Source: a virus
Virus record (IMG/VR): IMGVR_UViG_3300047667_000265
Coordinates: 1-42,937 of that record
Strand: one strand, 5' to 3'
Length of the DNA: 42,937 nucleotides
Below the pieces are notes generated by a model. The model made no database searches and was not told where the DNA came from. It saw only the letters and a program-made list of their open reading frames with translations. Below, one piece after another: positions 1 to 21,182 of the stretch; position 1 is the stretch's first letter; each line of letters opens with the position of its first letter. Both the position numbers and the translations under genes were made by a program.

Positions 1-1
1 T

Positions 2-142
2 AAGAAGGGCAACCACGCAGCGGCTAACGTTGCATTGAAGACGATTGGTCAACACACCGACGTAGACGCATTCGCTGCTGATAAGATCGAGATAGTCGAT
101 CCGGTGCAGGTGTACATCGATGGTGAGTTGTCTAAGGTATGA
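2..142 (+). CDS. terS: Terminase small subunit, C-terminal end (partial)
   Basis: The window opens inside this gene; 46 codons of its 3' end are visible, ending with TGA at 140-142. The visible peptide (…NHAAANVALKTIGQHTDVDAFAADKIE…) resembles the C-terminal part of phage small terminases, where the stretch ALKTIGQH is common. The small subunit recognises phage DNA and loads the large subunit for packaging. It overlaps the start of the large terminase gene by four bases (ATGA), which suggests translational coupling. The call rests on the short similarity plus position directly before TerL; the DNA-binding N-terminus is outside the window. Confidence 0.72.
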   Translation, partial: KKGNHAAANVALKTIGQHTDVDAFAADKIEIVDPVQVYIDGELSKV

Positions 143-2496
143 CAGCCGCGCCTAACTTCCTAGAACCCGCTATCCCAGCGAGCTTTCCGGTCACGGCACC
201 GCCACCTGACTTCTTCGCACCCACTACCGTCACTGACGAGGATGAGTTCAAGCTCACAGCGGCACAAGGCAAGGCGTTACAAACACTCACCAGCGATGCG
301 ATGTACTGCGCCCTCGGTGGTGGAGCACGTTGTCTTTCAGGTGACACGATGTTGGATGGACACACACAGACAGTTGCTGAACAGGCGCTTTACCCTGACA
401 AGCAGGTGCGTGTGCTCACAACCCACGGTTATCAATTGGTGGAGCCGCCATTTAAGAAAGGCACCACAGAGCTATTACACATAACGACGACAGAAGGTCG
501 CAGTGTCAAGGTGACACCTGACCATAGATTCTGGTCAGGCACCAACTGGGTGAGAGCCGACTCTTTGTGTCTTAACTCCCCTTTGGCCTCCCTGTTATCC
601 GAGCGAAACCATCATCGGTCCAGTTCGGAACCTTACCTTTCAAGGTTACGCGAAGGTGCTCAGCGTTGGACGCGAACACTCGTAAGTTGGATGGATCATT
701 GTTTTGGATATCACCGTCAATGTGATCCACGACTTCCCCCTTCTTCAACGGACGATCAAGACTTTCGTGCATCACTATCCGGTGAACAGGTGCGTAACCT
801 GTTGGGTCTGTCCCCTGCTTGCCACGCTTCGCTATTGCGCGAATCAGGTATCCAAACGGACCAGTCTTTGACACTCGACGAAGTATGTAACCTGATCGGT
901 CGTGAGTATGACCACCTTTCCAAGAAGGATGGTTCTCCATCTGTTGGTTGTGCTGTTTTATCCGAAGACCCCGTTTCCGCGCAAATTTACGCACGGTTTC
1001 GGAATTCACGTTCAGTTCGTCGGATATTTGAGGCGCTGTCATCTGAGACTCAATCATCGCACGAAGCATGTCGTAACGATCGATCCCAATCGGGCCAGTT
1101 CTTTTATCCCGCATATTCTGATACTCCTATAAACAATTATGTACTTGATAAGGTTTTGACTGTAACTCGAACCCCCAAGGAAGATTACTATACATTAAAC
1201 GTACCGTCAACCGAACAGTATTTCGCGAACGGATTGCTGCACCATAACTCTGGAAAAACTTTCTTGCTTGTCATGGCGGTATGTGCTAGGGCGCTGAAGG
1301 AGCCTAACTCAAGGCATGCTATATTTCGTTTCCGTCTTAATGCATTGATCTCATCTATTGTCCGTGACACGCTGCCCAAGGTGTTTAAGCTGAAATGGCC
1401 TGCCCTATGGGAGCTATGTAAGTACAATGGTCAGGACAACTTTCTGACTCTCCCGAACGGCTCCGAGATCTGGTTCGCAGGTCTCGATGATAAGGACCGG
1501 ACAGAGAAGATCCTTGGTATGGAGTTCGCGACACTATACTTCAACGAGTGCTCACAAATACCTTACGCGTCGGTCATTATTGCACTGACACGATTGGCAC
1601 AGAAGACGAAGACACTGACACTCAAGGCGTACTACGACTTTAACCCACCATCCAAAAACCACTGGACGTACCTACTCTTTGTCAAGAAGATCAACCCTGA
1701 TACCAAGCGTCCTCATCGTCACGAGTTCGACTACACATTCTATCTAATTAACCCTGGTGATAACCGTGAGAACCTAGATCCTAAGTACATCAACATGCTT
1801 GATGCACTCCCTGAGAAGGCGCGTAATCGATTCCTACTAGGTCGGTTCGCTGATGATGCCGATGGTGCATTGTGGACGGAGGAAGTCCTCGCCAACAACC
1901 GAGTGCTCAATGAGGAGCTACCAGAGTTCATTCGCATTGTCATCGCAGTTGACCCAAGTGGTTGCTCAGGACCAGAGGACTTCCGGTCTGATGAGGTGGG
2001 TCTGGTGGTGACAGCACTAGGCACCAACGGTGTTGCTTATCTACTTGAGGATCTGTCAGGACGGCATTCACCAGAGGAGTGGTCGAAGATAGCGAACGAT
2101 GCCTATCACCGTCACGCAGCAGATATTGTGGTGGGTGAGAAGAACTTCGGTGGTGACATGGTGCGAGCTGTGCTGCAGGCGAACAACCCTGACCTACCGT
2201 ACAAACATGTCACAGCATCCAGAGGCAAGGTGATACGAGCTGAGCCCGTTGCGATGCTGTACGAGAAGCAGAAGATCAGACACGTAGGTTACTTCACTGA
2301 GTTGGAGGATCAACTGTGTGGGTTCTCAGTATCAGGGTACAACGGGATGAAGAGTCCTGACAGAGCTGATGCGTTGGTGTGGGCAGTAACTGAGATGTTC
2401 CCACGTATTACAGAGAGCCAAGAGACACGTAATTGGACACCGCCTAAGAAAATACCCTATAATCAATCAGCAGCCAGATTTGACCGGAGAAATTAG
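139..2496 (+). CDS. terL: Terminase large subunit interrupted by an intein
   Basis: This is the ATP-driven packaging motor and nuclease. The precursor is 785 residues; removing the intein (residues 65-370) leaves a 479-residue terminase of normal size. The Walker A loop GGARSGKT exists only after splicing, because the intein lies between R64 and S371. A Walker B-like LYFNECS follows with E470. Nuclease acidic residues are visible at AVDPSG (D605) and SPDRADA (D741, D744). Start ATG139 overlaps the small-subunit stop. Since the P-loop is split, unspliced protein should have no ATPase activity, so packaging depends on splicing. Residues 145-325 of the precursor have no terminase or intein similarity, because they are the complement of an endonuclease gene. 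Confidence 0.95.
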   Translation: MTAAPNFLEPAIPASFPVTAPPPDFFAPTTVTDEDEFKLTAAQGKALQTLTSDAMYCALGGGARCLSGDTMLDGHTQTVAEQALYPDKQVRVLTTHGYQLVEPPFKKGTTELLHITTTEGRSVKVTPDHRFWSGTNWVRADSLCLNSPLASLLSERNHHRSSSEPYLSRLREGAQRWTRTLVSWMDHCFGYHRQCDPRLPPSSTDDQDFRASLSGEQVRNLLGLSPACHASLLRESGIQTDQSLTLDEVCNLIGREYDHLSKKDGSPSVGCAVLSEDPVSAQIYARFRNSRSVRRIFEALSSETQSSHEACRNDRSQSGQFFYPAYSDTPINNYVLDKVLTVTRTPKEDYYTLNVPSTEQYFANGLLHHNSGKTFLLVMAVCARALKEPNSRHAIFRFRLNALISSIVRDTLPKVFKLKWPALWELCKYNGQDNFLTLPNGSEIWFAGLDDKDRTEKILGMEFATLYFNECSQIPYASVIIALTRLAQKTKTLTLKAYYDFNPPSKNHWTYLLFVKKINPDTKRPHRHEFDYTFYLINPGDNRENLDPKYINMLDALPEKARNRFLLGRFADDADGALWTEEVLANNRVLNEELPEFIRIVIAVDPSGCSGPEDFRSDEVGLVVTALGTNGVAYLLEDLSGRHSPEEWSKIANDAYHRHAADIVVGEKNFGGDMVRAVLQANNPDLPYKHVTASRGKVIRAEPVAMLYEKQKIRHVGYFTELEDQLCGFSVSGYNGMKSPDRADALVWAVTEMFPRITESQETRNWTPPKKIPYNQSAARFDRRN
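572..1114 (-). CDS. HNH homing endonuclease encoded antisense inside the TerL intein
   Basis: A 180-residue protein read on the opposite strand to terL. Residues 12-56 look like a helix-turn-helix (ISDELNVNSETVRKFARKRG), as in many phage HNH endonucleases. The HNH core spans about 105-153: VHRIVMHESL (H111), EVVDHIDGD (D130, H131), NNDPSNLRV (N139, N143) and H153, matching the HNH_3 type. The ATG at 1114 is preceded by AGGAG at nine bases. The gene starts just before intein block F and stops (572-574) just after block B, so it fills the usual endonuclease slot. Inferred role: cutting intein-free terL alleles at the P-loop to drive homing. It needs a minus-strand transcript; only a weak -10-like CATAAT (1136-1141) is visible upstream. 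The intact domain order argues against a chance shadow frame. Confidence 0.93.
   Translation of the reverse strand: MRDKRTGPIGIDRYDMLRAMIESQMTAPQISDELNVNSETVRKFARKRGLRIKQHNQQMENHPSWKGGHTHDRSGYILRRVSKTGPFGYLIRAIAKRGKQGTDPTGYAPVHRIVMHESLDRPLKKGEVVDHIDGDIQNNDPSNLRVFASNAEHLRVTLKGKVPNWTDDGFARITGRPKGS
1124..1128 (-). promoter_or_regulatory. Shine-Dalgarno of the antisense endonuclease gene
   Basis: On the minus strand AGGAG lies nine bases before the ATG at 1114, within the context ATAGGAGTAT. It decides the start of the nested gene and shows that the antisense frame carries its own initiation signal. The same bases encode part of the C-terminal splicing region on the plus strand. Confidence 0.75.
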
Positions 2497-2733
2497 ATGG
2501 GTAAGGAAATTGAAAGAGCAACTAAAGATGTAGCCAGCGTGGCAACACTTGGTAAATCGAATTACATTAAAAATAAACTCATGCCTGACACACCTGACCT
2601 ACCAGATGAGCCAGAGGGTGCGCCCGTAGCCGACGACGATGCAATTAAAACTGCGAATCGACGTAAGGCCGCTAAGCGTAGATCAGGTGGTAGAGCCGGT
2701 ACTATTTTAACGGAGGGATCGAAACTTGGCTAA
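2497..2733 (+). CDS. Small conserved protein between terminase and portal
   Basis: A 78-residue protein starting directly after the terL stop. The N-terminus is MGKEIERATKDVASVATLG; the middle is acidic and proline-rich (DTPDLPDEPEGAP); the C-terminus is basic, then RRSGGRAGTILTEG. Small proteins with a similar basic R-x-G-R-A-x-T-I-L-T ending are frequent at this position in podovirus genomes, as far as I recall. No enzymatic motif is visible and the function is not known. A virion assembly role is inferred from position only. It overlaps the portal start by eight bases. Confidence 0.8.
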   Translation: MGKEIERATKDVASVATLGKSNYIKNKLMPDTPDLPDEPEGAPVADDDAIKTANRRKAAKRRSGGRAGTILTEGSKLG

Positions 2734-4273
2734 ATCCTTCACAGAGCTTGCGGCGCTCAGCAACCAGCTCTTTAAGTTCCAATATCCGATGCTGACGTTG
2801 TATCAAACGTTGGCTGACCATTTCTATCCTGAACGAGCTGACTTCACAACAACACGTAACGTAGGCCAGGAGTTCGCTGATAACTTGGTGGACTCATACC
2901 CTGTCATTGTACGTCGTGACCTTGGTAACGCATTCAATGCCATGTTACGTGATGGTCATTGGTTCAAGATATCCACACAAGAAGCTAGTCATGATCGGGA
3001 AGGTACCGCATGGTTAGAGTGGGCAACCCAAGTACAACGTAAGTCAATGTATCAACGTAGTGCGGGGTTCAATCGTGCTGTTAAACAGGGTGATCATGAC
3101 TTCGCTACTTTCGGTCAATGTGTCATCTCAATCGAGATGAACCGTAAACGTAATGGCCTACTATATCGTAACTGGCACCTGCGCGATGTCGCATGGCGTG
3201 AGGACGAGACAGGTGAGGTGGGTGACATAACCCGCAGATGGAAGCCTACTAACATTGACCTCAAGACTATTTTTGGTAACAAGGTGCATCCGAAAGTTAT
3301 AGAGGCGTGTATCAAAGAACCCTACTCTGAAGTTGATGTAAGACACATTGTCTTATCATCAGAAGTGTACGGTGATGAATCAATGAAGCAGCACCCCTAC
3401 GTCAGCATTTACATTGACATGGTGAATGAGCACGTCATTGAGGTTCAACCTCTTACAAACAAATACTATGTTGTACCACGATTTCAAACCATCGCGGGTC
3501 AACCCTACGCGTACAGTCCAGCGACGGTAGCAGGTCTACCTGATGCGCGGTGTTTACAGGCGATGACTCACACACTACTTGAGGCGGGTGAGCGGTACGC
3601 ACGACCACCGATTATAGCCACATCTCAAGCAGTACGAGGTGACGTTGACTTGGCACCCAATGGTATTACATGGGTGGACAAGGATTATGACGAGAAGCTA
3701 GGTGCAGCACTAAGACCTATGTACCAGAGCCAAGGGGGATTCCCTATTGGGCTTGAGTTACGTAGTGAGATTAAGAACATCCTGTCCAGCGCATTCTATC
3801 TGAATAAGATTACGCTACCGCAGGGTGATCACGAGATGACTGCGACTGAGACCATCGAACGCATGAAGCAGTATCGACGCGAGGCGTTGCCACTATTTAT
3901 GCCAGTTGAGTCTGAGTACAACGGTCAAGTATGCGAGATCACATTCGATCTTATGATGAAGAATAACCTTTTCGGTTCACCTCACGACGTACCACAGTCT
4001 TTACGTGGTGCAGAGGTCGAGTACCAATTCGAATCACCATTGACATCCAGTGCTGAAGAGAAGAAGGTTAACCAGTTCCACCAGACAGCACAGTTACTTG
4101 CTGAGACCGTACAGTTTGATCCTACAGCCACAGCAAACGTGAACCTAGATGAAGCATTACGTACAGCAGTGAAGGGCACAGGGGCTCCTGAGTTCTGGCT
4201 GAACGATCCTAAACAAGTAGCACAGCAAAGAGCACAGCAGCAGGCGCAAGCAGCACAGGAGCAAGTGCAATGA
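2726..4273 (+). CDS. Portal / head-tail connector protein (T7 gp8 type)
   Basis: A 515-residue protein resembling the phage head-tail connecting protein family. That family forms the dodecameric portal at the capsid vertex, through which DNA is packaged and ejected. The N-terminal segment (LADHFYPERADFTT…) and the region around residues 370-390 (HEMTATETIERMKQYRREALPLF) are typical. The start is a TTG at 2726, supported by GGAGG at 2712-2716; the first ATG downstream would cut off the conserved N-terminus. The C-terminus is a glutamine/alanine-rich tail (QQRAQQQAQAAQEQ). It overlaps the next gene by four bases. Confidence 0.93.
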   Translation: MAKSFTELAALSNQLFKFQYPMLTLYQTLADHFYPERADFTTTRNVGQEFADNLVDSYPVIVRRDLGNAFNAMLRDGHWFKISTQEASHDREGTAWLEWATQVQRKSMYQRSAGFNRAVKQGDHDFATFGQCVISIEMNRKRNGLLYRNWHLRDVAWREDETGEVGDITRRWKPTNIDLKTIFGNKVHPKVIEACIKEPYSEVDVRHIVLSSEVYGDESMKQHPYVSIYIDMVNEHVIEVQPLTNKYYVVPRFQTIAGQPYAYSPATVAGLPDARCLQAMTHTLLEAGERYARPPIIATSQAVRGDVDLAPNGITWVDKDYDEKLGAALRPMYQSQGGFPIGLELRSEIKNILSSAFYLNKITLPQGDHEMTATETIERMKQYRREALPLFMPVESEYNGQVCEITFDLMMKNNLFGSPHDVPQSLRGAEVEYQFESPLTSSAEEKKVNQFHQTAQLLAETVQFDPTATANVNLDEALRTAVKGTGAPEFWLNDPKQVAQQRAQQQAQAAQEQVQ

Positions 4274-4536
4274 TAGAAGTCGTGATCAATGGTAAGGCAC
4301 ACTCAGTAGATGAGGCACGTAAAATATATGTACAGCTTCATGCTTTGTTCGGTGAGAAGAAATACGAGACATCATACAAACCACACACTTCGTTCTCTAA
4401 AGACCTGATCTGTGGTGGTGATATTTTGGTAAAACCATATTCTTCGATGGATGAACTTGCATTCAAAGTTGAAGAACAGTGGGGACCACCTGAGTCGTTA
4501 AACCAACGAGATACAGTATGTACAATGGATATGTAA
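4270..4536 (+). CDS. Hypothetical protein
   Basis: An 88-residue protein starting at an ATGA overlap with the portal stop. It begins MIEVVINGKAHSVDEARKIY, which looks like a small alpha/beta fold, and shows no catalytic or metal-binding motif and no membrane segment. It lies between the portal gene and a 155-base non-coding stretch. I do not recognise the family. Confidence 0.7.
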   Translation: MIEVVINGKAHSVDEARKIYVQLHALFGEKKYETSYKPHTSFSKDLICGGDILVKPYSSMDELAFKVEEQWGPPESLNQRDTVCTMDM

Positions 4537-4691
4537 AGACTCCCTAGGTCGGGGAGTACCCGACTTAGACGAAAGCTTTCTAATAGGAGGTGATTAGTCT
4601 CGTGCAGTGTACGTGAAAGCGTGTCAACCTGTAGGCTTAGCCATCCTCAAGGACCGCGAAGCCATTATAATTATAATCCGTGGAGGATAAT
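4537..4691 (+). promoter_or_regulatory. Structured intergenic leader before the Tad2-like gene
   Basis: A 155-base gap in a genome with almost no gaps. It holds two overlapping inverted repeats that cannot form together: ACTCCC…GGGAGT (from about 4540) and GTCGGG…CCCGAC (from about 4550). It also holds the palindrome GAAAGCTTTC and the stem CTAAT…ATTAG whose loop exposes AGGAGGTG (4585-4592). That loop is a near-perfect Shine-Dalgarno, but only a GTG at 4602 follows, with a four-codon reading frame ending in TGA. A second Shine-Dalgarno (GGAGG, 4682-4686) serves the next gene at 4692. This looks like an attenuator or regulatory leader; no known riboswitch was recognised. Confidence 0.4.
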
Positions 4692-5162
4692 ATGAGAGTG
4701 AAAGTAAGAGAACAGTACGATGCTATCGTGGGTAATTATAAAATTCGAATGGATGACACTGAGTCAGGGAACCATGTTTTCGATGAATATGAAGAAGGTG
4801 GTAAGCCACAGGCTCTTGCTCGAATGAGAGAGAAGCTAGAATCGATGGTTACACCTGAATTGGATACCGAGATTGAAAGTAGAGGTTTTGGTTGGGCTAT
4901 CGATAAGTTAAAGAATGGTGATAAGGTAGCTCGTCAGGGATGGAACGGTAAGGGAATGTGGTTAATATTAGTCCCTGGTTCAGAAAACATCAAACCCGTG
5001 GCTGGCACTCCGTACAGTAAAGCAGGTCTAGTCGAAGAAATACAGATACTTCCCCACATAGATATGTACACCACTGACAGCTCAGGCCGTCGTGCGATGT
5101 TGTGTGGGTGGTTGGCTTCACAAACTGATATGTTATCAGACGATTGGCAGACAGTTCCATGA
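4692..5162 (+). CDS. Tad2-like (DUF2829) anti-defence protein with an N-terminal extension
   Basis: A 156-residue protein. Residues about 68-155 match the DUF2829 family: FGWAIDKLKNGDKVARQGWN, GKGMWLILVPGS, LPHIDMYTTD and GWLASQTDMLSDDWQ. DUF2829 is the Tad2 family, whose characterised members bind the cyclic ADP-ribose-type signal of Thoeris defence and so block immunity. Whether this copy binds such a ligand is inference. The first 65 residues (MRVKVREQYDAIVGNY…) are not part of the usual short Tad2 and are unrecognised. ATG4692 is chosen over the in-frame GTG at 4680 because GGAGG sits five bases before it. Its place among virion genes is unusual for an anti-defence gene. Confidence 0.85.
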   Translation: MRVKVREQYDAIVGNYKIRMDDTESGNHVFDEYEEGGKPQALARMREKLESMVTPELDTEIESRGFGWAIDKLKNGDKVARQGWNGKGMWLILVPGSENIKPVAGTPYSKAGLVEEIQILPHIDMYTTDSSGRRAMLCGWLASQTDMLSDDWQTVP

Positions 5163-5437
5163 GCGATGTACCTCAGTCTCTCAAAGTAGATAAATTAACA
5201 AAGCAAGAGGTTGTTGCGTTGCAGGATCTCAATAAAGGGACCGCGACAGAGTATCAGCAGAAACTTGCACTGCATGTTATTGTGAATAAATTTGCACGAG
5301 CACAAGATTTATTATATATACCAGATTCATTTGACCAAACAGCGTTGCTCAATGGACGAGCGTTCGTAGGTCAGCAAATACTAAAATACTTAAATATACC
5401 CGTGGGGAAACTAGATGAAACACTTTCTAATGAATGA
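5159..5437 (+). CDS. Hypothetical protein, possibly Bbp19-like
   Basis: A 92-residue protein, largely helical. It contains FDQTALLNGRAFVGQQILKYL, a segment that recalls small proteins preceding the scaffold gene in other podoviruses (Bbp19-like). That comparison is from memory and weak. ATG5159 overlaps the previous stop as ATGA and is preferred to an upstream TTG at 5144. It overlaps the scaffold gene by 23 bases. Confidence 0.7.
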   Translation: MSDVPQSLKVDKLTKQEVVALQDLNKGTATEYQQKLALHVIVNKFARAQDLLYIPDSFDQTALLNGRAFVGQQILKYLNIPVGKLDETLSNE

Positions 5438-6359
5438 AGCAGGCGACGGTGATCTATCAGGTGGCGCAGCACCAGTAGACACCGTAATTAGCGCAGCAGC
5501 CGATCCAGCACCAGCAGCCGATCCAGCACCAGCAGCCGATCCAGCACCAGCAGCCGATCCAGCACCAGCAGCCGATCCAGCACCAGCAGCCGAAGTTGAT
5601 TGGCGTGATGCAATGGCGGGTGGCGACGAAAAGAAGATGAACCAACTCAAGCGGTTCACGGATGTCGGTAAACTGTCTGAAGCATATTTCAATGCACAAG
5701 AAAAGATTCGCGCGGGTGAGACTAGCAATGGTCTACCCGACAACCCTACTGATGAACAATTAACTGCATACCGCGAAGCAAACAATGTACCCGCTACTGC
5801 TGCTGACTACGCGTTGTCTCTCGATGAAGGTTTAGTCCTTGGTGAGATGGACGAAGGTATCATGAAGGGCGTGTACGATGTAGCCCACCAGAACAACGTG
5901 AGCAACGAAGCGGTTAGTCAGATGACCAATGCTATGTTGAAAGGGCGTGAGTTAGAGAGTCAAATGCTCACCAAGCAAGATGGTTTAGATGTACAAAACT
6001 CTAACGCAATGCTCCGTGATAACTGGGGTCAAGATTACGAAATGAATGTGGGTCTGGTGCAAGGTGTACTCGGTAGCCTGCCTGAATCAGTCCGTGATGA
6101 TTTCGCCAGCGCTCGATTAGCAGACGGCACTGCAGTATTCAACTCACCTGAGATGATGAACTTCTTTGCTGAAGCAGCTCGTGCAATCAACCCTGCAGCT
6201 ACGGTTGTACCTGCTGGTACCGGTAACCCAACACAAGCAGTCACAGGTCGTATCGCTGAGCTTGAAGGTAAGATGAGCGGTGACGGATGGCATAAGGACA
6301 GTGCATCACAAAAGGAGCTACTGAACCTCTACGATGCGAGAGAAAGGTTGTCTAAGTGA
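5415..6359 (+). CDS. Capsid scaffolding protein (putative)
   Basis: A 314-residue acidic, largely helical protein between the portal and the major capsid gene, the standard scaffold position. Residues about 29-58 are five copies of ADPAPA, a flexible linker. After that come WRDAMAGGDEKKMNQLKRF and the segment ADYALSLDEG, both typical of T7-group scaffold or capsid-assembly proteins. The C-terminal ~60 residues (ELEGKMSGDGWHKDSASQKELLNLY) are the likely capsid-binding helices. The start is preceded by GGGGA at six bases. Scaffold proteins direct procapsid assembly and leave before maturation; that role here is inferred. Confidence 0.8.
   Translation: MKHFLMNEAGDGDLSGGAAPVDTVISAAADPAPAADPAPAADPAPAADPAPAADPAPAAEVDWRDAMAGGDEKKMNQLKRFTDVGKLSEAYFNAQEKIRAGETSNGLPDNPTDEQLTAYREANNVPATAADYALSLDEGLVLGEMDEGIMKGVYDVAHQNNVSNEAVSQMTNAMLKGRELESQMLTKQDGLDVQNSNAMLRDNWGQDYEMNVGLVQGVLGSLPESVRDDFASARLADGTAVFNSPEMMNFFAEAARAINPAATVVPAGTGNPTQAVTGRIAELEGKMSGDGWHKDSASQKELLNLYDARERLSK
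5499..5588 (+). repeat. Five tandem 18-bp repeats in the scaffold gene
   Basis: The unit GCCGATCCAGCACCAGCA is repeated five times without mismatch and encodes (ADPAPA)5. The copies are identical at synonymous positions, so expansion is recent or the array is kept uniform by slippage. The copy number is likely to vary between isolates and in assemblies. Confidence 0.95.
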
Positions 6360-6727
6360 AGTATGATGACTTCGACGTAGAGACTTTCAACGACAAAGGT
6401 ACGGTACGTGTGACGCATAAAGCGTCCGGTACCACTCGGATGTCTAATGATGTCACACAAACCGGTATCACATATTTGATGCAAGATATCGGTGACGAGA
6501 TTAACGCGAAGAAGCGACCTCTATCGTTCGCCATAGCACTGGCAGCAGTGATCGAAGAGGGAAAGGGTATGCGTATTGAGGGTGATACCGCAGTGGTACG
6601 CGCTCAGTTTCCAGATGAATATTCGATGATGGATCTACCATATCTCTACATCGATCGTGAAGTCGGTAGGCACCCTTGGACGGTAGATTCATGCGCACCT
6701 TTCGCTACATGGTTGATAGTTGATTAA
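6356..6727 (+). CDS. Hypothetical protein before the capsid gene
   Basis: A 123-residue protein starting at GTG6356, which overlaps the scaffold stop (GTGA). It is a mixed alpha/beta protein (FDVETFNDKGTVRVTHKASG…, …RIEGDTAVVRAQFPDEY) without recognisable motifs. No signal peptide or membrane segment is visible. Coupling with the scaffold gene suggests a capsid-assembly role, but this is only context. Confidence 0.65.
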   Translation: MKYDDFDVETFNDKGTVRVTHKASGTTRMSNDVTQTGITYLMQDIGDEINAKKRPLSFAIALAAVIEEGKGMRIEGDTAVVRAQFPDEYSMMDLPYLYIDREVGRHPWTVDSCAPFATWLIVD

Positions 6728-6874
6728 TCATGTGGTAAGTTTAAAGCACTAACCATTGACCCTCGATGTTAACGAGCGGCCCCTACACGTAGGCTAACCC
6801 GCAGAAGTGACTGAAAGCTAACTCAAACTTAGTGAATCATTTATCTTTTTAACATAATCATTGAGGAGGACATT
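6728..6874 (+). promoter_or_regulatory. Structured leader of the major capsid gene
   Basis: A 147-base gap before the capsid gene. TAAGTTT (6736-6742) can pair with AAACTTA (6825-6831), closing a domain of about 95 bases that contains smaller hairpins such as CTCG…CGAG and CCTA…TAGG. A strong Shine-Dalgarno (GAGGAGG) follows at 6863-6869. No tRNA or known riboswitch is seen, and no convincing sigma70 promoter. An mRNA-stability or processing element for capsid expression is inferred. Confidence 0.35.
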
Positions 6875-7705
6875 ATGTCCCAATCAGCTTTTCAAACCAT
6901 GTATCGAGCCGAGCACATTAAAGGTTTCGAAAAACGTGAGTCGTTACTGCGTAAGTCAGTGACTACAGAAGCACAAATTTCAGGTAATGAAGCGGTATTT
7001 CTAGTTGCAGATTCAGGTGGTGCCACTGCGGTAACTCGTGGTCTTAACGGTGATATCCCAACTCGTGCTGATAACTTAAACCAGAACACATGTACTTTGA
7101 AAGAATGGCATGATGTTCCTGAGCGTACTAAGTTCAACATCTTCGCCTCTCAAGGTGATGGTCGTCGAATCATGCAAGAAACTTGTATGTCCGTTATCAA
7201 TCGTCAGATCGACACAGACATCCACGATGCACTTGCAGCAGCGACAGTTACTTGGGGTTCGGCAGCAGTAGCAACGTTGTTACTTGTTACGACAGCGAAG
7301 ACCAAGCTTGGTAATGCTTTTGCAGACCAAGATGACGAAGTATTCGCAGCTATCACACCCGCATTTTACGGGTATTTGATGGGTCTTAATCAGTTCACTT
7401 CAGCAGATTATATTAATACTAAACCCTTCGAAGGTGTGAGTAAGTCTCGTGCATTCAACTGGTACGGTGTTAATTGGATTGTTGACGCATCGTTAGCTGG
7501 TGTAGGTACTTCTTCTGCAACATGTTTCATGTATTCACGTAAGGCTATTGGTCATGCGATGAACAGTGAAGGCACTCAGACGCTTGTCGGTTACGATGAG
7601 AAGAATGATAAGTCATGGGCTCGTTGTACTGAGTTCATGGGTTCTAAACTTTTACAGAACAGTGGTGTAGTTAAAATGCTCCATGATGATTCTGCACTTT
7701 CTTAA
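6875..7705 (+). CDS. Major capsid protein
   Basis: A 276-residue protein preceded by the strong Shine-Dalgarno GAGGAGG. The sequence pattern (SVTTEAQISGNEAVFLVADSGG, PTRADNLNQNTCTLKEWHDV, and later VFAAITPAFYGYLMGLNQF) is that of a podovirus HK97-fold capsid protein family. Order after scaffold and before a small decoration-like protein supports this. It is shorter than T7 gp10 but fits this family. The strong translation signal agrees with a protein needed in hundreds of copies per virion. Confidence 0.85.
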   Translation: MSQSAFQTMYRAEHIKGFEKRESLLRKSVTTEAQISGNEAVFLVADSGGATAVTRGLNGDIPTRADNLNQNTCTLKEWHDVPERTKFNIFASQGDGRRIMQETCMSVINRQIDTDIHDALAAATVTWGSAAVATLLLVTTAKTKLGNAFADQDDEVFAAITPAFYGYLMGLNQFTSADYINTKPFEGVSKSRAFNWYGVNWIVDASLAGVGTSSATCFMYSRKAIGHAMNSEGTQTLVGYDEKNDKSWARCTEFMGSKLLQNSGVVKMLHDDSALS

Positions 7706-7718
7706 GGGAAAATGACTT

Positions 7719-8003
7719 ATGGCTTATGCAACGACTAACCCTCCTGCTCTTATCTCACAACTTGTGGGTAAAGCTGGTGGTAGCATGTGGATTTATGATA
7801 GCGCTGATGCCGCGACAGCAGTACGTGTCACGGGTTACATCACTAACGGCTCAGACTTAGGTATGTCTGTTGGTGATATCGTAGATCAAATCGATTCAGC
7901 CGGTGCAACAGTAGCCCATCGCTACGTTGTTGTATCTGTAGCAGCAGGTGGTGCAGCCGACTTATCTGACGGCACAGCATTAACTATAACTGATACCGAT
8001 TAA
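7719..8003 (+). CDS. Capsid decoration / head-associated protein (putative)
   Basis: A 94-residue beta-rich protein rich in Ala, Gly, Ser and Thr (GYITNGSDLGMSVGDIVDQID, HRYVVVSVAAGGAADLSDGT). It lies 13 bases after the capsid gene and before a double terminator, so capsid and this protein end one transcription unit. Small beta-rich proteins here are commonly head decoration proteins. Function is inferred from position and composition. Confidence 0.65.
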   Translation: MAYATTNPPALISQLVGKAGGSMWIYDSADAATAVRVTGYITNGSDLGMSVGDIVDQIDSAGATVAHRYVVVSVAAGGAADLSDGTALTITDTD

Positions 8004-8015
8004 TAGTATCCACGG

Positions 8016-8048
8016 AAAAGGTGCCTCTTAGCGGGGGTACCTTTTTTA
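8016..8048 (+). terminator. Rho-independent terminator 1 after the capsid genes
   Basis: AAAAGGTGCC pairs with GGGTACCTTTT (one G-U pair), followed directly by a T run ending at 8047. It closes the capsid transcription unit. Confidence 0.8.
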
Positions 8049-8053
8049 CCTTT

Positions 8054-8079
8054 AGTCGCAAGGACTTGCGGCTCTTTTT
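8054..8079 (+). terminator. Rho-independent terminator 2, tandem with the first
   Basis: AGTCGCAAG and CTTGCGGCT form a stem with one G-U pair and a three-base loop, followed by C and five T. Two terminators within 65 bases separate capsid from tail genes. The T run lies just before the GGAG Shine-Dalgarno of the next gene. Confidence 0.75.
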
Positions 8080-8091
8080 GGAGAATTACCA

Positions 8092-8517
8092 GTGGAAAAC
8101 CAACCATTAAAGCGCTCAGACGTTCAAGTGTTCGGTACTAATTATCTTGTTTACGGTGCTGTAGTACCTAAACAAATGAGTAAAGAAGAGTTAACAGATC
8201 CAGCTCTATGGGTCAATGTCGCTACAAAGTTTCAGATGGGTTGTGAGATTCGAGTTGTAGATGCTGATTGCAGCTTCATGGCACGATTATTCATAACCTA
8301 TGTGAACATGCATGATGTCAGACTACACGTACTTGAGCACCACATCTTTGAGTCATCAGAAGTAGTAGACAGCGGTGAGTATGAGATCAGACAGCGCGGT
8401 GTCCATAAATGGTGTATCATGCGTAAAGATCACCCAGATCCAGTTCAGTCTGGTATTGCTACAAAGCCTGAAGCGCAGAAGCAATTGGATGAGTACCTAC
8501 AAACTTTAGCGAGATAA
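8092..8517 (+). CDS. Conserved hypothetical protein before the tail genes
   Basis: A 141-residue protein beginning at GTG8092 with GGAG eight bases before it. A beta-rich middle (GCEIRVVDADCSFMARLFITYV) is followed by EYEIRQRGVHKWCIMRK and KPEAQKQLDEYLQT. The last part looks like the small domain (modified residue pattern, then K-x-E-A-x-x-L) that I recall seeing after capsid genes in other podoviruses. The function is not known. Confidence 0.7.
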   Translation: MENQPLKRSDVQVFGTNYLVYGAVVPKQMSKEELTDPALWVNVATKFQMGCEIRVVDADCSFMARLFITYVNMHDVRLHVLEHHIFESSEVVDSGEYEIRQRGVHKWCIMRKDHPDPVQSGIATKPEAQKQLDEYLQTLAR

Positions 8518-8520
8518 GTC

Positions 8521-9702
8521 ATGGCAACAACCCAACTATCACTTTACAATGAAGCGTTACTGTTAGTTGGGGAGCGTGAACTTACTACGCTCACTGATGA
8601 CGTAGAAGCCCGTTACCGTTTAGATACTGCATATGAAAATGGGGTCGATTACTGCCTTGAGCTGGTCAACCCTAATTTTGCACGTAAGACCAGTTTACTA
8701 AATGTATATTCGACAAGCTCGGTACATGCATTCGATAACGTATTCACATTGCCTACTGACTACATCAGTATGGTCATGCCTTATAGTGATGAGAAACTTG
8801 ATCAACCCATTGGTCGATTCATCATCGAAGATCGTGATTTAGCGTGTAACTACGCCACCATATACCTCCGGTACATTACCAACAGCTACGCATTAACCTC
8901 ATGGGATAAATCCTTTGAACGCGTGGTCGTGGCATACCTTGCCAATGAGATATGTCCTCGTATTGCGCCCGATGACATGGAGCGTGTCGAAGCTACATTC
9001 ACCGCACGACTCAAACAAGCTATTGAACTTGCTAATCAGAAAGAACCCAACCCCCGTTCGAGTGATGAAGGGTCAACCCTCACTGCGGCATGGTTGAAGA
9101 TATACAATCGTGCATTGCAGATTCTTGGGCAAGACCACCTCAACAGTGTTACCGATGATTCTATCCGTAAAGTCAAACTCGATGTAGCCTTATCGTCAGG
9201 ATTGGTGGAGTCATTACTTGAGGATACAGGATGGCACTGGGCCGTAACCTCTGCAAAAGTACAAGTCAACCCTTCACTTGAACCTGAGTGGGGTTTGAAG
9301 AATGTATTTGATAAACCAGATAACATGCAACGTATCGATGGTGTATTTGCTGACGAGTACATGAAAGTACCTCTGAAGGAGTACAAAGAGGAAGGTGCAT
9401 ACATCTACTCTGACTACAATGAGATGTATATTCAGTTTGTCAGTAGAGCATACCTAAGTGACCCTGCTTCTTGGCCGGTACATTTTACCAGACTAGTATC
9501 AGCAACAATGGCGCGTGATGTATCCAGGTTAAAAGTGTTTGGTAAGACAGCTCGTGAGATCGAAGAGATCCGTCTGATATTCAAAGAGGCAGAAGCTGAG
9601 TCTAAGAATATAGATGTAATGCAAGCACCACCGAGAATCATATCAGAAGGAAGCTGGGTGAGTTCGAGATTTCAAGGCAACCGATACAGAAGGAGTCCTT
9701 AA
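8521..9702 (+). CDS. Tail tubular protein A (T7 gp11-like), two tandem copies in one chain
   Basis: A 393-residue protein, twice the length of T7 gp11 (about 196). The N-terminal half starts LSLYNEALLLVGERELTTLTDD. A second, diverged copy begins near residue 190: LKIYNRALQILGQDHLNSVTDD. In both, a helical start is followed by a similar spaced V-x-x-x-L-E segment. Gp11 proteins form a dodecameric ring (gatekeeper) under the portal. A fused dimer suggests six chains or two stacked rings, which is inference. The gene lies just before tubular B, as in T7. Confidence 0.85.
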   Translation: MATTQLSLYNEALLLVGERELTTLTDDVEARYRLDTAYENGVDYCLELVNPNFARKTSLLNVYSTSSVHAFDNVFTLPTDYISMVMPYSDEKLDQPIGRFIIEDRDLACNYATIYLRYITNSYALTSWDKSFERVVVAYLANEICPRIAPDDMERVEATFTARLKQAIELANQKEPNPRSSDEGSTLTAAWLKIYNRALQILGQDHLNSVTDDSIRKVKLDVALSSGLVESLLEDTGWHWAVTSAKVQVNPSLEPEWGLKNVFDKPDNMQRIDGVFADEYMKVPLKEYKEEGAYIYSDYNEMYIQFVSRAYLSDPASWPVHFTRLVSATMARDVSRLKVFGKTAREIEEIRLIFKEAEAESKNIDVMQAPPRIISEGSWVSSRFQGNRYRRSP

Positions 9703-9705
9703 CCA

Positions 9706-12285
9706 ATGTCGATGCCAGCCGTCTACAACAAATTTAATCGGGGTGAGGTGAGTGACAACTCTATCGCACGTGATGACGTTAAGAAAGTAATAAACTCAGC
9801 CTCCTTGATGACCAACTTCTGGCCTGAACGACTAGGACCGATGTCCTACCGTAACGGTTTGGAGCACAAGGATATTTTAGCAGGTGAAACCTACTCGATA
9901 CCTTTTGTGAAGAAGGTGGATGACACCGCTATCTTGGCATTCAGTAATAATGAATTGCGAATAATTGTCGATGATACAATTGTATCCCGCACAACCGTTG
10001 CCTCCACTATCACCAATCCAGATTTCACCAGCGATATTACAGGGTGGACGAATGCTGATGGGGCAGGTTCCTCGTCGGTATGGTTGACGGGTGGGTATGC
10101 GAGCATGACGGGCGCAGGTACCACATCAGCGGTTTTGCATCAGACGATCACGACTACAGTAGTTGAGCATGGTCTGCGAATAGAGATTAAAGAGGCACCA
10201 GCGAGAATCAGAATAGGTACATCAGGGGTGTTAAGTTCAGACATACTGGATACCACATTAGATGTCGGTACACATTCCTTCGTATTTACACCAGCGTCTA
10301 ACCCCACTATCACCTTATCGAATTCAACTACGATCCGAACATTGGTGGATAGTGTGAGCTTCGAAACGACAGGTGAGATGGTACTGTTGACGGGAATACC
10401 GACAGCAGATATCAGTAAGATAAGATACCACCAGTCGGCTGATGTTGTATTTTTAGCAACGGAAGGTAATAAGCAGTATCAGGTTAAACGTAGAGGCACG
10501 AAGTCCTGGTCGTTCGTTGAGTATCGATCGAATGACGGACCCTATGACTCTATCAATATATCAGATGTGACGTTGACGGCAGCAGCACTCAGTGGTAACA
10601 CCACGTTAACTGCCTCGGAATCATATTTCAAGGCAACGGATGTCAGTACTATATTCAAGTTAGCATCGGCAGGACAAGAGGTCAGTGCGAGTGTTAGCGC
10701 ACAGGACAACGGCACAGGATCAGTCAAGGTCACAGGTATCACAGGTTCACGGATATTTAGTATCACAGTCAGTGGGACTTTTGTGGCTACGGTTACACTG
10801 CAGAGATCAGCAGATGATGAGTTGTGGGAAGATGTAGAAACCTACACCGTAGCAACCAGCAAGACATACGACGACGGTCTGGACAATGCGACAATGTACT
10901 ACCGTCTGTATGTTAAGACCGGCGACTATACATCAGGAACTGCTGTACTAGGTTTGGTGTATTCATCAGGGTCGATAGAGGGTGTGGCACGAATAACAGC
11001 TTACACTTCGGCTACCGTAGTTGATGTACAAGTCTTAACAAGTTTCGGTGCAACCATTGCCACGCGTGATTGGTACAGAGGGTCATGGGGATCAGGTAAC
11101 TATCCGTCAGCAGTAGCAAACTATGAAGGTAGAATCTGGTGGTCAGGGACTAATAATGTATGGGGGTCAGTATCAGATGCCTACTACTCTTTTGACCCAG
11201 ATGTGGAAGGTGCCAGCGCACCTATCACTCGGACCATCGGTATAGGTCCAGTAGATGTGATCAACTGGTTATGCCCAACCTCGCGGCTAATTCTTGGGAT
11301 GCCAACAGAAGATCTAAGTGTCCGGTCAAGCTCTTTTGGTGAAGTACTAACCAATCTGAATGCAAACATAAAAGATAATAGTGGTCAGGGCTCAGCACCT
11401 GTGGGTTATGCCAAGGCAGGACAGTCGATCTATTTTGTCCACCATGTTACATCGAAATTAATTCGTTTATTCTACGATAGTAACAATGACGCTCATGCTG
11501 CTGAAGACATGATGACTATGCACCCTGAGATCGCCACAGCAGGTATCAAACGTATTGCTATCGTCAGACAACCTGAGACCCGCATCTTTGTTGTATTGGA
11601 AGACGGTACGGCTCGTGTGTTCTTACATGACAAAGCAGAAGAGGTCGGTGGTTGGTCAAGGATGGAAAGCGCCGGCTTAATTGAAGATGTAATCACCTTA
11701 CCGGAAACGGGAGAAGATCGTGTATATTTCGTAGTCAATCACTCAGGCACTCGTGCATTAGAGAAGATGAGTATGTTCACAGAGACTAATCCTCACGATA
11801 ACCATGTGAGATATACGTCAACCACAACCACTATTACAGGACTGACTCACCTCGAAGGTATGACCGTCGGTGTGTGGGGAAGTGGCGCTGACCAAGGTGA
11901 TTTCGTTGTAAGTAGTGGGAGCATAACGACCCTCGCAGCATATTCAGATGTGACTGTAGGACTGAGATACACTGCGGATTATACATCGAATAAACTATCG
12001 AACTATTTACCATACAGCCCCATTACCAGAAGGTCACGAGTCACTGACATTGCGATACTAGCGAGCAATTTATATGGTGCAGGTTTGAGCGTAGGACCGG
12101 ACTCTGGTAATCTAAGACCAATAGAAGGAGCAACGGGTACTGAGTACGACCAAGACTCGTTCCCTTTCGATGGCTCTTATGGTACTAATTCAAGGGTCCA
12201 CTTGCGGGCAACAGCACCAGCGACTATCAAGGCTTTAGTATATGGAATCAAAGAATCCCAACATAAGAGCACTTCGGAAAAGTGA
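9706..12285 (+). CDS. Tail tubular protein B (T7 gp12-like nozzle)
   Basis: An 859-residue beta-rich protein. The opening YNKFNRGEVSDNSIARDDV and NFWPERLGPMSYRNGLEH is characteristic of phage tubular B/nozzle proteins, which build the tip of the short tail. The segment NYEGRIWWSGTNNVWGSVSDAYYSFDPD is also typical. Residues about 90-330 and 290-430 hold extra Ser/Thr-rich beta domains not needed for the core, probably virion-surface insertions. Its 3' end overlaps the next gene by 44 bases. Confidence 0.9.
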   Translation: MSMPAVYNKFNRGEVSDNSIARDDVKKVINSASLMTNFWPERLGPMSYRNGLEHKDILAGETYSIPFVKKVDDTAILAFSNNELRIIVDDTIVSRTTVASTITNPDFTSDITGWTNADGAGSSSVWLTGGYASMTGAGTTSAVLHQTITTTVVEHGLRIEIKEAPARIRIGTSGVLSSDILDTTLDVGTHSFVFTPASNPTITLSNSTTIRTLVDSVSFETTGEMVLLTGIPTADISKIRYHQSADVVFLATEGNKQYQVKRRGTKSWSFVEYRSNDGPYDSINISDVTLTAAALSGNTTLTASESYFKATDVSTIFKLASAGQEVSASVSAQDNGTGSVKVTGITGSRIFSITVSGTFVATVTLQRSADDELWEDVETYTVATSKTYDDGLDNATMYYRLYVKTGDYTSGTAVLGLVYSSGSIEGVARITAYTSATVVDVQVLTSFGATIATRDWYRGSWGSGNYPSAVANYEGRIWWSGTNNVWGSVSDAYYSFDPDVEGASAPITRTIGIGPVDVINWLCPTSRLILGMPTEDLSVRSSSFGEVLTNLNANIKDNSGQGSAPVGYAKAGQSIYFVHHVTSKLIRLFYDSNNDAHAAEDMMTMHPEIATAGIKRIAIVRQPETRIFVVLEDGTARVFLHDKAEEVGGWSRMESAGLIEDVITLPETGEDRVYFVVNHSGTRALEKMSMFTETNPHDNHVRYTSTTTTITGLTHLEGMTVGVWGSGADQGDFVVSSGSITTLAAYSDVTVGLRYTADYTSNKLSNYLPYSPITRRSRVTDIAILASNLYGAGLSVGPDSGNLRPIEGATGTEYDQDSFPFDGSYGTNSRVHLRATAPATIKALVYGIKESQHKSTSEK

Positions 12286-12601
12286 TATAATTGAGTTCTA
12301 TGATGAACCATTCCCTGAGTCAGTTAGAGGGTTGGCCGTAGAACTCGATGGTGTACCGGTGGGTGTAGCAGGTGTTATACATACCAATCCACTACAAGCA
12401 TTCAGTACCATGAGAGATGATTTGCGAAAGTATCCGAAGACGATAGTTAGGACAGCTAGACAAATAAAGATTATATTGGATAGTTATAATAGTCCGATAT
12501 ACGCATACGCAGATGAGGATGAAAAGAATTCCGTGAATTTTTTAAAGCATGTAGGCTTCGATCAGTTAGATGATGGGGTATTCAAATGGCAGATGTCGTA
12601 A
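12242..12601 (+). CDS. GNAT-fold internal virion protein A (T7 gp13-like)
   Basis: A 119-residue protein. The segments RGLAVELDGVPVGVAGVIH and SVNFLKHVGFDQLDDGVFKW follow the GNAT acetyltransferase fold: strands around the acetyl-CoA loop, then the final helix and strand. In podoviruses this gene follows tubular B and encodes a small head or assembly protein, which often lacks obvious catalysis. The start lies inside the previous gene with AAGG upstream; the end overlaps the next gene by 16 bases. Confidence 0.8.
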   Translation: MESKNPNIRALRKSDIIEFYDEPFPESVRGLAVELDGVPVGVAGVIHTNPLQAFSTMRDDLRKYPKTIVRTARQIKIILDSYNSPIYAYADEDEKNSVNFLKHVGFDQLDDGVFKWQMS

Positions 12602-13089
12602 GTAAAGGTTTCGGGTATGTCGAAGGTAGACAAATCAAGAAAGCCAAAGATGTAGAAGCCCAGCAACTCAGACGAGCAGCTATCGCACGAGAGGCAGCAG
12701 GGACTAATCAAGCATACGAACAACGTAAGCAGGGTGAGAAGGTACAATCCAATGCTATCGCAGTTATGGCTGCAAGTGGTGGAGTTGTCGACTCGGATAT
12801 TGTCGCGGATCTCAAATCCACTACAGACTACAACGTACTATCTGAACTGTTCGCGGGTAAGACCGAATCATCCTCACTGAAACTACAAGCGAAGATGAAA
12901 GAGTTTGAAGGTAAACAAGCCAAAAGACTGGGTACTGCTAAACTCATCACATCATTAGTGGTAGAGGGAGGTAAGGCGATGGCGGGTGGAGCAGGTACAC
13001 CAACACCAGCAGAGGGCGTAGGCGGTGGAGCCGTAACCAACACATCAGGATCGAACCTGAACTTTAATCGATTTGCAGGTGTATCTTAA
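12586..13089 (+). CDS. Internal virion protein B (T7 gp14-like)
   Basis: A 167-residue protein: a helical, basic and Gln-rich N-terminal half (RQIKKAKDVEAQQLRRAAIAR) and a glycine-rich tail. The segment IAVMAASGGVVDSDIV, followed by a long helix, is typical of podovirus gp14-like ejection proteins. Those leave the capsid first and form a channel in the outer membrane. Position between the GNAT protein and two large ejection proteins supports the call. Confidence 0.78.
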   Translation: MADVVSKGFGYVEGRQIKKAKDVEAQQLRRAAIAREAAGTNQAYEQRKQGEKVQSNAIAVMAASGGVVDSDIVADLKSTTDYNVLSELFAGKTESSSLKLQAKMKEFEGKQAKRLGTAKLITSLVVEGGKAMAGGAGTPTPAEGVGGGAVTNTSGSNLNFNRFAGVS

Positions 13090-13090
13090 A

Positions 13091-14887
13091 ATGCCAACAA
13101 TACCTAGTCTAGAACGACGTACAGTTAATACACGTACCAGTATCGCAACGGTAGACGCTCGTGGTGCAGCATCTCTTGGTCGAGAAGTCGCCGCTGGGAT
13201 CACCGAAGTCAAGGATACTCGTGACCGGTACCAGTTGGCCGATGCCGCCAGTAAATTTTCCATCCTGAAGCACCAGCAAGATAATGCTTTCGATGAAGAT
13301 GACAAAGACTATGCCACTTTCGATGAGCGATACTCCACCAGCATGGATGAGGGCATGGCTGAGATAGCAGAGGGCATCAGTGACACAAGCCTCCGTACTG
13401 CTTTCATGTTGGACAGCCGACCACGTATCGTTGCAGGACAGGAGCGAATCAAAGATAAAGCATTCGCAGTTGAGACAGACGTACAACGTGCCAATGTAAA
13501 CTCAAGGTTCAATGGTTTACGTGAAGTTATCCTTGGTGATGACGAAACGGAAAGTATACGTGCTATTCAGGACGCAAAAGATTTACTCGCAAGCTCAAGA
13601 GACAGTGGATATTACAGTGCTGAGGAAATGGGTAATATGGAGAGAGCTTTCACAGCAGACGCTGCTATCGGGTATGTCAATAAGCAAGATATAGAAGACC
13701 AGAAAGCTGCCTTGGAAAGTGATCTGGTGCAGAAGAATGTCCCTAGTGATATTATCGCGAAGAAGCTACGTTCGCTTGAGAATCAGACGCAACTTGCAGA
13801 AGCACAGAAAATTGCCGATAGTTTTGACGGTCTCTCAATCAGCGAACAGAATTCTAAGTTTAGAGACTACGAAGGTAAACAGCGACAGTTAGTCCAACAG
13901 TTAGTCGGACAGAACAACGCTCTACAGAAGCAAGTTAAAATCGTTGACGATGAAGCTTTACATCAAGATTGGTACATGAAAGTTATCACGGGAGATGAGG
14001 GGTTTACTCTACCAGACCTACTTGACAAGGGTAATACAGAGTTTCTTAACCTAGATGATAAGTATCAGAAAGATTTAATGCGAGCGGCATCAGCAGCCTC
14101 GACACCAAGGTCTGCTTCTAACCGGAAAGTCATAGACCACCTGTATAAGTTGAACGCGGAAGGTTCGAAAGACAAATCTAAATACATTGAATTAAGAGAA
14201 TACTATACGGCGAACGTCGATAAGTTATCCGCCAAAGACATGGATCGATGGTCTAAGTTATCGAACGAGGGGATAATACCTGAAGAGTATGCGTCCGAGT
14301 TCACCCTCATCCAACGTGTGGATAATATCTTAGCAACTGCGGGTGTGAAAGACAGCGTAGTAAGTCTGTTGGTTAGAGATAAAGTCGACAAATGGAATGA
14401 GAGCTATTTCGAAACATACAACAAAGCACCAGATCAAACGGCGATGGATGATGAGATCACTAGGCAGGTGACTGAGGTATCCCGTAGCCGGTGGGGAGAC
14501 AGTCCTTTAAGCGACACCTACACAGCAGAGGATAATTGGATCAAGATGACAGTGCCTCGACAAAACGTTGTCATAGCAGACACCATTGAAAACCCAGCGG
14601 GTGCAACACTTGGTAACGTACATGTTGTCCTTGGTGAAGTATTGGGGTTCTCACGAGACCCTGAGATGATCATACAAGGTATTAACTTAGGCATTGATCG
14701 TTATGAAGAATTGAATGATGATGATAAAGGTTTAGTTTTCAACTCGATCCGTGATAATGATACTGAGAAGTACGATAGGATAGGTACGAAATACCTCGAA
14801 GTAAATAACAGGACGCCTACACAACAGGACATGATCGATGGATATAGAAAAATCAGAGACTTCAAAAGAAAGCAACAGCAACAGTAA
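13091..14887 (+). CDS. Internal virion protein C (T7 gp15-like)
   Basis: A 598-residue, highly charged, mostly helical protein with long predicted coiled segments (KFSILKHQQDNAFDEDDKDY; KKLRSLENQTQLAEAQKIAD). The N-terminus MPTIPSLERRTVNTR resembles that of other podovirus gp15-like ejection proteins. ATG13091 lies two bases after the previous stop and is preferred to an upstream in-frame TTG at 13073. The role, forming the periplasmic part of the ejection channel, is inferred from position and length. Confidence 0.75.
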   Translation: MPTIPSLERRTVNTRTSIATVDARGAASLGREVAAGITEVKDTRDRYQLADAASKFSILKHQQDNAFDEDDKDYATFDERYSTSMDEGMAEIAEGISDTSLRTAFMLDSRPRIVAGQERIKDKAFAVETDVQRANVNSRFNGLREVILGDDETESIRAIQDAKDLLASSRDSGYYSAEEMGNMERAFTADAAIGYVNKQDIEDQKAALESDLVQKNVPSDIIAKKLRSLENQTQLAEAQKIADSFDGLSISEQNSKFRDYEGKQRQLVQQLVGQNNALQKQVKIVDDEALHQDWYMKVITGDEGFTLPDLLDKGNTEFLNLDDKYQKDLMRAASAASTPRSASNRKVIDHLYKLNAEGSKDKSKYIELREYYTANVDKLSAKDMDRWSKLSNEGIIPEEYASEFTLIQRVDNILATAGVKDSVVSLLVRDKVDKWNESYFETYNKAPDQTAMDDEITRQVTEVSRSRWGDSPLSDTYTAEDNWIKMTVPRQNVVIADTIENPAGATLGNVHVVLGEVLGFSRDPEMIIQGINLGIDRYEELNDDDKGLVFNSIRDNDTEKYDRIGTKYLEVNNRTPTQQDMIDGYRKIRDFKRKQQQQ

Positions 14888-17175: not shown

Positions 17176-17513
17176 TTAAGTTTGTGTTTTTAATGATGCT
17201 GAGTGTTGCTGTATCAGCTGCCGATCAACTTACGTGGAACGAAGCGGAGTTAAGAGAAGATGGTTCAGCGATTGAGACAATTGAAAAGTATAATATATAT
17301 CATTGGTATGAAAATATTTTACAGCCTGTTATCGAAGTGCCTGGGGATAGTACTTCGCATGGTGATCCCGACGGACGAGTAGGTATTCATGTTTATGAAA
17401 TATCAACAGTAGAAGACGGGCAGGAAGGAAAAAGAAGTTATCCTGTCGCTTATTATATTAAGCCTGATTCAGCTCCGATAAAACTACTCTTAACATTGGA
17501 GCAGGTAGACTAA
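17172..17513 (+). CDS. Small exported protein with fibronectin type III-like fold
   Basis: A 113-residue protein with a clear signal peptide, MIKFVFLMMLSVAVSA, and likely cleavage after VSA. The mature part starts DQLTWNEAELREDGSAI and EKYNIYHW, the W…DG…I…Y-x-I-Y pattern of the first strands of fibronectin type III domains. A signal sequence is unexpected among virion genes. It may act in the periplasm or at the cell surface during infection, for example in superinfection exclusion; this is speculation. It is coupled on both sides (ATGA, TAATG). Confidence 0.7.
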   Translation: MIKFVFLMMLSVAVSAADQLTWNEAELREDGSAIETIEKYNIYHWYENILQPVIEVPGDSTSHGDPDGRVGIHVYEISTVEDGQEGKRSYPVAYYIKPDSAPIKLLLTLEQVD

Positions 17514-20998: not shown

Positions 20999-21182
20999 CA
21001 ACTACTTTAAGAGTAAGTACTTCGGTAGCAACTATCGGAAGTCGAAATACTACCGTCCCACAGGGACACCGGTAGAAGACATCTATGATCCCGAAGGTGG
21101 CCCACGTGATGATGGCTTCTTGCAAGATGACGATGAAGTGATTATGCTTGTAGCACGAGCATTCCTAACCCTGGTGAATTAA
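20988..21182 (+). CDS. Small tyrosine-rich phage protein
   Basis: A 64-residue protein starting MPANNYFKSKYFGSNYRKSKYY, with repeated Y-[FW]-K-S-[KR]-Y-F/Y units, followed by an acidic tail. Similar short repeats are found near structural genes of other podoviruses, where function is unknown. It overlaps the fibre gene by 11 bases and its stop overlaps the next ATG (TAATG). Confidence 0.65.
   Translation: MPANNYFKSKYFGSNYRKSKYYRPTGTPVEDIYDPEGGPRDDGFLQDDDEVIMLVARAFLTLVN

Follow-up and report, generated by a model that had tools for sequence, protein, structure and literature searches.

Can a terminase gene interrupted by an intein also carry, on the opposite strand of that intein, a nuclease gene of its own, and which of the two readings does selection preserve? 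The question is raised by the window, a virus record of 42,937 bases taken here over its whole length, in which terL lies on the plus strand and an HNH nuclease open reading frame on the minus strand. This frame lies where the initial annotation had placed it (572-1114, minus strand, 180 aa, ATG start), and the plus strand opposite is an open 785-aa TerL frame with an intein. The AGGAG described for the minus frame is present at 1128-1124, 9 nt from the ATG. The proposed antisense overlap holds for the whole nuclease gene but not for the entire intein, whose ends (about 331-570 and 1138-1248) are splicing domains coded on one strand. The features are as follows.

139-2496, plus strand: terL, terminase large subunit, 785 aa, with an intein in the Walker A/P-loop (Terminase_6N, Terminase_6C, Intein_splicing, phrog_979)
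331-1248, plus strand: intein, 306 aa, TerL residues 65-370, from C1 to HHN with +1 Ser (comparison with the empty site of L102; ends conserved in 45 inteins)
331-597, plus strand: N-terminal splicing domain (intein residues 1-89), with C1 and the block-B TPDH (AlphaFold2 pLDDT 95-98, HINT fold)
598-1137, plus strand: sense linker of the intein, open, unconserved and predicted disordered, with the HNH gene opposite nearly its whole length (pLDDT, alignment)
1138-1248, plus strand: C-terminal splicing domain of the intein, ending YYTLNVPSTEQYFANGLLHHN (pLDDT 94-98; H305 and N306 invariant)
572-1114, minus strand: HNH homing-type endonuclease gene, 180 aa, ATG start, lying entirely within the intein, with the first codon positions of the two frames facing each other
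656-784, minus strand: HNH catalytic region, H111, D130-H131, N139, N143 and H153 (conservation in 63 nucleases)
980-1084, minus strand: N-terminal helix-turn-helix region of the nuclease, residues ~11-45 (three predicted helices; weak HTH_23/HTH_11 matches)
1124-1128, minus strand: Shine-Dalgarno AGGAG, 9 nt 5' of the nuclease ATG (sequence)

The host gene is unbroken: TerL is one continuous frame, and its product matches Terminase_6N (2e-14), Terminase_6C (4e-13), Intein_splicing (2.8e-10) and phrog_979 (3e-63). The insertion junction lies in the P-loop, GGGAR/SGKT; the nearest TerL found, that of L102 (84% amino acid identity, an identical contig being set aside), has an empty site and reads ALGGGAR/SGKTF without insert at the same codon junction. 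A nucleophile at position 1, a block-B TxxH, a C-terminal His-Asn and a +1 Cys/Ser/Thr are all present in the window intein, as C65, TPDH, H369-N370 and S371 of TerL. Alignment of 45 inteins finds C1, T62, H65, H305 and N306 invariant or at least 90% conserved, and not one conserved column in the sense linker. AlphaFold2 with family alignments models intein residues 1-89 at pLDDT ~95-98 and residues 271-306 at 94-98; over most of residues 90-265 the value is 42-52, and the linker is predicted to be disordered. Foldseek matches the modelled intein to the Ssp and Npu DnaB mini-inteins, with a HINT fold (E 2e-6 to 1e-5).

On the minus strand, the full HNH motif of the initial annotation is borne out by matches to HNH_3 (E 5e-9) and to the PHROG HNH family 10730 (3e-14), and the frame also matches many HNH families. 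The catalytic residues it had named hold across 63 nucleases, all of which match phrog_10730: D130, H131, N139, N143 and H153 are invariant, and H111 is at least 90% conserved. The helix-turn-helix yields only sub-threshold Pfam matches, and AlphaFold models it as three helices at residues 11-47 with pLDDT ~95-97. The model of the whole nuclease, likewise built with family alignments, has a mean pLDDT of 89; its best PDB match in Foldseek is I-HmuI (1u3e), with a probability of 0.98 but a weak E of 0.05 and a TM of 0.34.

Which frame selection acts on can be read from the codon positions. As had been claimed, minus codon position 3 faces sense position 2; therefore, fastest change at sense position 2 is the signature of the nuclease gene, whose wobble falls there. 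Between the window and L014, differences in the overlap amount to 22/58/17% at sense positions 1/2/3, against 36/28/61% in the TerL extein. Sense position 2 is the fastest in the overlap in all 11 comparisons within the window clade, and position 3 is the fastest in the extein. In the HNH frame, nine of ten pairs have an omega of 0.14-0.42 and the tenth one of 0.66 (per-pair values); in the sense frame it is scattered over 0.36-1.7, with the window pairs at 1.4-1.7. Values below 1 in the sense frame (0.36-0.42) occur in two close pairs with long HNHs and are attributed to overlap with the N splicing domain. Purifying selection thus acts on the HNH frame, whereas the sense linker is held open and shows little beyond stop avoidance. 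This is the outcome the initial annotation had foreseen for a per-frame substitution test, namely purifying selection on the minus frame and only stop avoidance on the plus frame.

Where nuclease tails run over the intein N domain, the pattern reverts to the sense frame. The C-terminal tail of the nuclease in L051/L083 shows 3, 13 and 1 differences at nuclease positions 1, 2 and 3 over the N domain; since the position pattern flips in these tails, selection switches strand at the domain border. Longer nucleases extending antisense into the N-terminal splicing domain, with sense-dominated selection there, are also seen in L001 (2983-3693), L002 (2950-3648) and L094 (3767-4681).

The open sense frame is not a matter of chance, because synonymous recodings of the window HNH never leave it open (0 of 300 trials, with about 8 sense stops each). 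Among 69 representatives, the sense frame is open through the HNH span in 68; one sense stop is observed there where synonymous recoding predicts ~490-500, and 701 and 552 stops fall in the remaining two antisense frames. The phase used imposes a strict rule, namely that a sense stop is obligate wherever Phe precedes Ile, Met, Thr, Asn or Lys. Because sense stops are avoided, these F[IMTNK] dipeptides are absent from the nucleases (0 against 80 +- 7.7 in shuffles; 10 against 10.3 in six controls), and this absence shows that the amino acid sequence of the nuclease itself is shaped by the overlap. Unlike either other antisense phase, the phase used permits no substitution that is silent in both frames, so any point mutation in the overlap alters at least one protein. 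The codon-on-codon phase has no forbidden dipeptide and leaves room for doubly silent changes. It is an easier phase than the one used, and common descent is therefore preferred over optimisation. A separate idea, that silent nuclease codons steer the linker towards hydrophilicity, was rejected: linker hydropathy equals that of synonymous recodings (mean z -0.15, p 0.35).

The arrangement recurs far beyond the window. In a tblastn search of phage records the same nuclease turned up in nine phages, namely Pseudoalteromonas phage PHS3 and eight that infect Pectobacterium/Dickeya; in each of them it is antisense in an intein-bearing frame, beside portal or terminase genes. A profile scan for the nuclease gave 80 viral and 8 bacterial-genome loci. 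Counted over all loci examined, and leaving out the identical contig L004, phages and prophages provide 94 loci, or 69 clusters at 97%, where a homologous HNH lies antisense within a sense frame, in a single phase throughout; the sample is biased, since every locus was found with this HNH family as bait. Six control HNHs are without this arrangement, and L003 and L013 are free-standing HNH relatives. Megablast of window positions 1-15000 against phage records gave no match, nor did a search of plasmids with the Enterobacter nuclease. Elsewhere in the window, two large frames (17513-20998 and 27201-28928; 1161 and 575 aa) have no PHROG match at 1e-5, and a 1622-aa frame (21182-26050) matches phrog_9880, of unknown function, at 2.5e-143.

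Intein_splicing matches 55 of 63 sense frames and Terminase_3 matches 48 of 63; C1, the block-B His, HN and the +1 Ser/Thr/Cys are retained in nearly all inteins of the family. Most exteins are terminases. Two SNF2 helicases and one TraD/TraG-like ATPase also occur, and here too the antisense-HNH intein sits at Walker A (L050 2619-4862, L087 2466-4964, L080 2556-4877). The element has therefore crossed between unrelated host genes. L046 (3968-4766) is the sole representative with a linker stop: its sense frame spans just 83% of the nuclease and TerL resumes after the stop, which may be a sequencing error, a decaying element or a real exception. In the TerL of L038 (1605-4883, minus strand), another Hint match lies beyond the P-loop intein on the downstream side, and the protein possibly holds two inteins.

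On the TerL tree, which has some very long branches, the window and the empty-site L102 are sisters (98), and presence of the element requires a minimum of three to five changes. Some nucleases and splicing domains are ~60-69% identical while their TerLs are only 20-23% identical. Prophages of E. coli MEI003 and Enterobacter cloacae DSM 26481 are 96% identical in the N domain, 91% in the linker and 90% in the C domain, against 75% and 72% in the flanks; E. coli ET729 has an empty site, and its TerL is nearer to that of Enterobacter (91% and 83% of flanking bases). Differences between MEI003 and Enterobacter at sense positions 1/2/3 number 10/40/5 in the linker; the N domain has 4/0/7 and the extein 64/41/214. 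A Mantel test relates nuclease distances to those of the intein (0.77) and of the extein (0.72), a slight gap that is not decisive; stronger evidence comes from the contrasts in identity and from the E. coli/Enterobacter pair. Judged from these sequence comparisons, the element has been transferred horizontally as a unit. The E. coli/Enterobacter identity pattern is what homing would leave, cleavage itself being presumed.

Shine-Dalgarno signals are clearly enriched before the nuclease genes. One of at least 4 nt stands before the first start in 32 of 69 representatives and before the best start in 46 of 69 (a figure inflated by the choice of best start), against 6.3% of out-of-frame ATGs. The promoter-like score 5' of the nuclease exceeds that of extein windows, mostly through base composition, and barely exceeds that of shuffled sequence (p = 0.05); no consensus promoter was found upstream of the nuclease in the window. 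The nuclease would be expressed from the minus strand and, as the initial annotation suggested, possibly at another time than terL.

Dual coding, the selection pattern, one conserved phase, the predicted folds and the empty sites are features of the family as it stands, and the reading considered very probable is a mobile intein with two functions on opposite DNA strands, a cis-splicing intein on the plus strand and a homing endonuclease on the minus strand. Protein splicing, target cleavage and a homing step would each take part. Read forwards, the TerL P-loop would hold one contiguous intein that splices in cis, made of two folded half-domains and a stop-free linker, and the seemingly meaningless linker would be excised together with the intein. 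Read backwards, the linker DNA encodes an HTH-HNH homing-type endonuclease, whose gene has a ribosome-binding site of its own. This nuclease would cut P-loop alleles that lack the intein, and repair from the invaded copy would spread the whole element. Selection is divided, acting on the splicing ends in the sense frame and on the middle in the antisense frame, where the sense reading mainly has to avoid stops.

The reverse account takes the minus frame for a mirror artefact, an antisense frame kept open by conserved sense coding and no gene at all. Chance long antisense frames are known in some codon-biased genes, but here the minus frame is homologous to free-standing HNH families, its catalytic residues are conserved, the sense linker lacks any conserved column, and the HNH is predicted to fold confidently where the linker is not; the substitution pattern fits the minus frame, and the codon-position test already refutes an artefact, which has next to no probability left. 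A split or dead intein, in which the linker would be only a nested gene between two halves, has the linker stop of L046 in its favour; given that the sense frame runs open across the HNH span in all but one of 69 representatives and that C1, the block-B His, HN and the +1 residue are kept in nearly all, it is very improbable. Myxomycete rDNA offers a further model, a group I intron that carries its homing gene antisense, in the identical arrangement (PMC9548176); the present insert, however, is open in frame, carries intein motifs and has a predicted HINT fold, and window positions 100-1500 give no Rfam match at E up to 1, so that this origin has a negligible chance of being right.

Of a different kind is the proposal that treats the nuclease as a selfish gene, which at one time entered an existing mini-intein backwards and now mobilises the element; its antisense placement would have no role of its own, and its fixed phase would reflect one founding event. 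It refines the mobile-intein explanation rather than opposing it, and it is somewhat favoured. The free-standing relatives L003 and L013 agree with it, and a single origin explains the use of a phase that is not the easiest better than optimisation does. Against it, the arrangement persists in a single orientation throughout 69 clusters and in several exteins, albeit in a sample biased by the HNH bait. A more speculative view, rather unlikely on present evidence, makes this a distinct class of mobile inteins whose cutting and splicing functions have to be carried by opposite transcripts; the nuclease message would then be an antisense RNA over terL that could both launch homing and restrain the late terL transcript. 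The mobile intein with its two functions on opposite strands remains the preferred explanation.

The arrangement is widespread, with dozens of unrelated phages and also bacterial prophages among its carriers, and common yet masked by annotation. The record of E. coli MEI003 (NZ_CP071263.1; L182 2601-4888) has its intact intein-bearing terL flagged incomplete/pseudo because PGAP annotates the antisense HNH; the PHS3 record truncates terL, and the Pectobacterium phage records give terL as hypothetical and miss the nuclease. For the study of overlapping genes the family is a natural test bed, where selection changes frame at domain borders and the code forbids five nuclease dipeptides, and its sense linkers form a large natural set of predicted disordered sequences under mainly one rule, the absence of stops. 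Culturable hosts make the system testable.

An antisense nuclease gene nested in an intein was not found in the part of the literature covered by the search; the antisense-nuclease intein is apparently undescribed, though priority is not proven. The nucleases belong to the existing phrog_10730, so the novelty is one of architecture and not of enzyme. I-HmuI is encoded in a group I intron. Nucleases of its type (PDB 1u3e; HNH_3; phrog_10730) share the HNH_3 motif and give the best, though weak, structural match; the gene studied here lies antisense within an intein and has an HTH in front of the HNH. The ShiLan domain is an out-of-frame HNH hidden on the same strand in an insertion of an actinophage methylase (PMC11855218). 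Like the present family, it hides an HNH gene in an alternative frame of a mobile insertion that is stop-free and in frame with its phage gene; it differs in strand and has neither intein splicing domains nor a detectable ribosome-binding site (PMC11855218), whereas the gene here is antisense, lies in an intein and often has a Shine-Dalgarno. Nuclear group I introns of Didymium carry homing genes antisense to the splicing element, but that element splices as RNA and the gene occupies a peripheral segment that codes for no protein (PMC9548176). Here both strands are readable as protein.

Canonical homing-endonuclease inteins of the DnaB, RecA and VMA types have in common with this family the splicing ends, the HINT fold, the P-loop insertion and nuclease-linked mobility. 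Their nuclease, however, is a domain of the intein polypeptide; here it is on the minus strand, and the sense linker is unconserved and predicted disordered. Split inteins ("fractured genes") carry a stand-alone nuclease gene between the intein halves. The stand-alone gene is shared, but here host gene and intein form one continuous reading frame. Apparently a homing gene can inhabit an intein in this third manner, besides in-frame fusion and a place beside a split intein.
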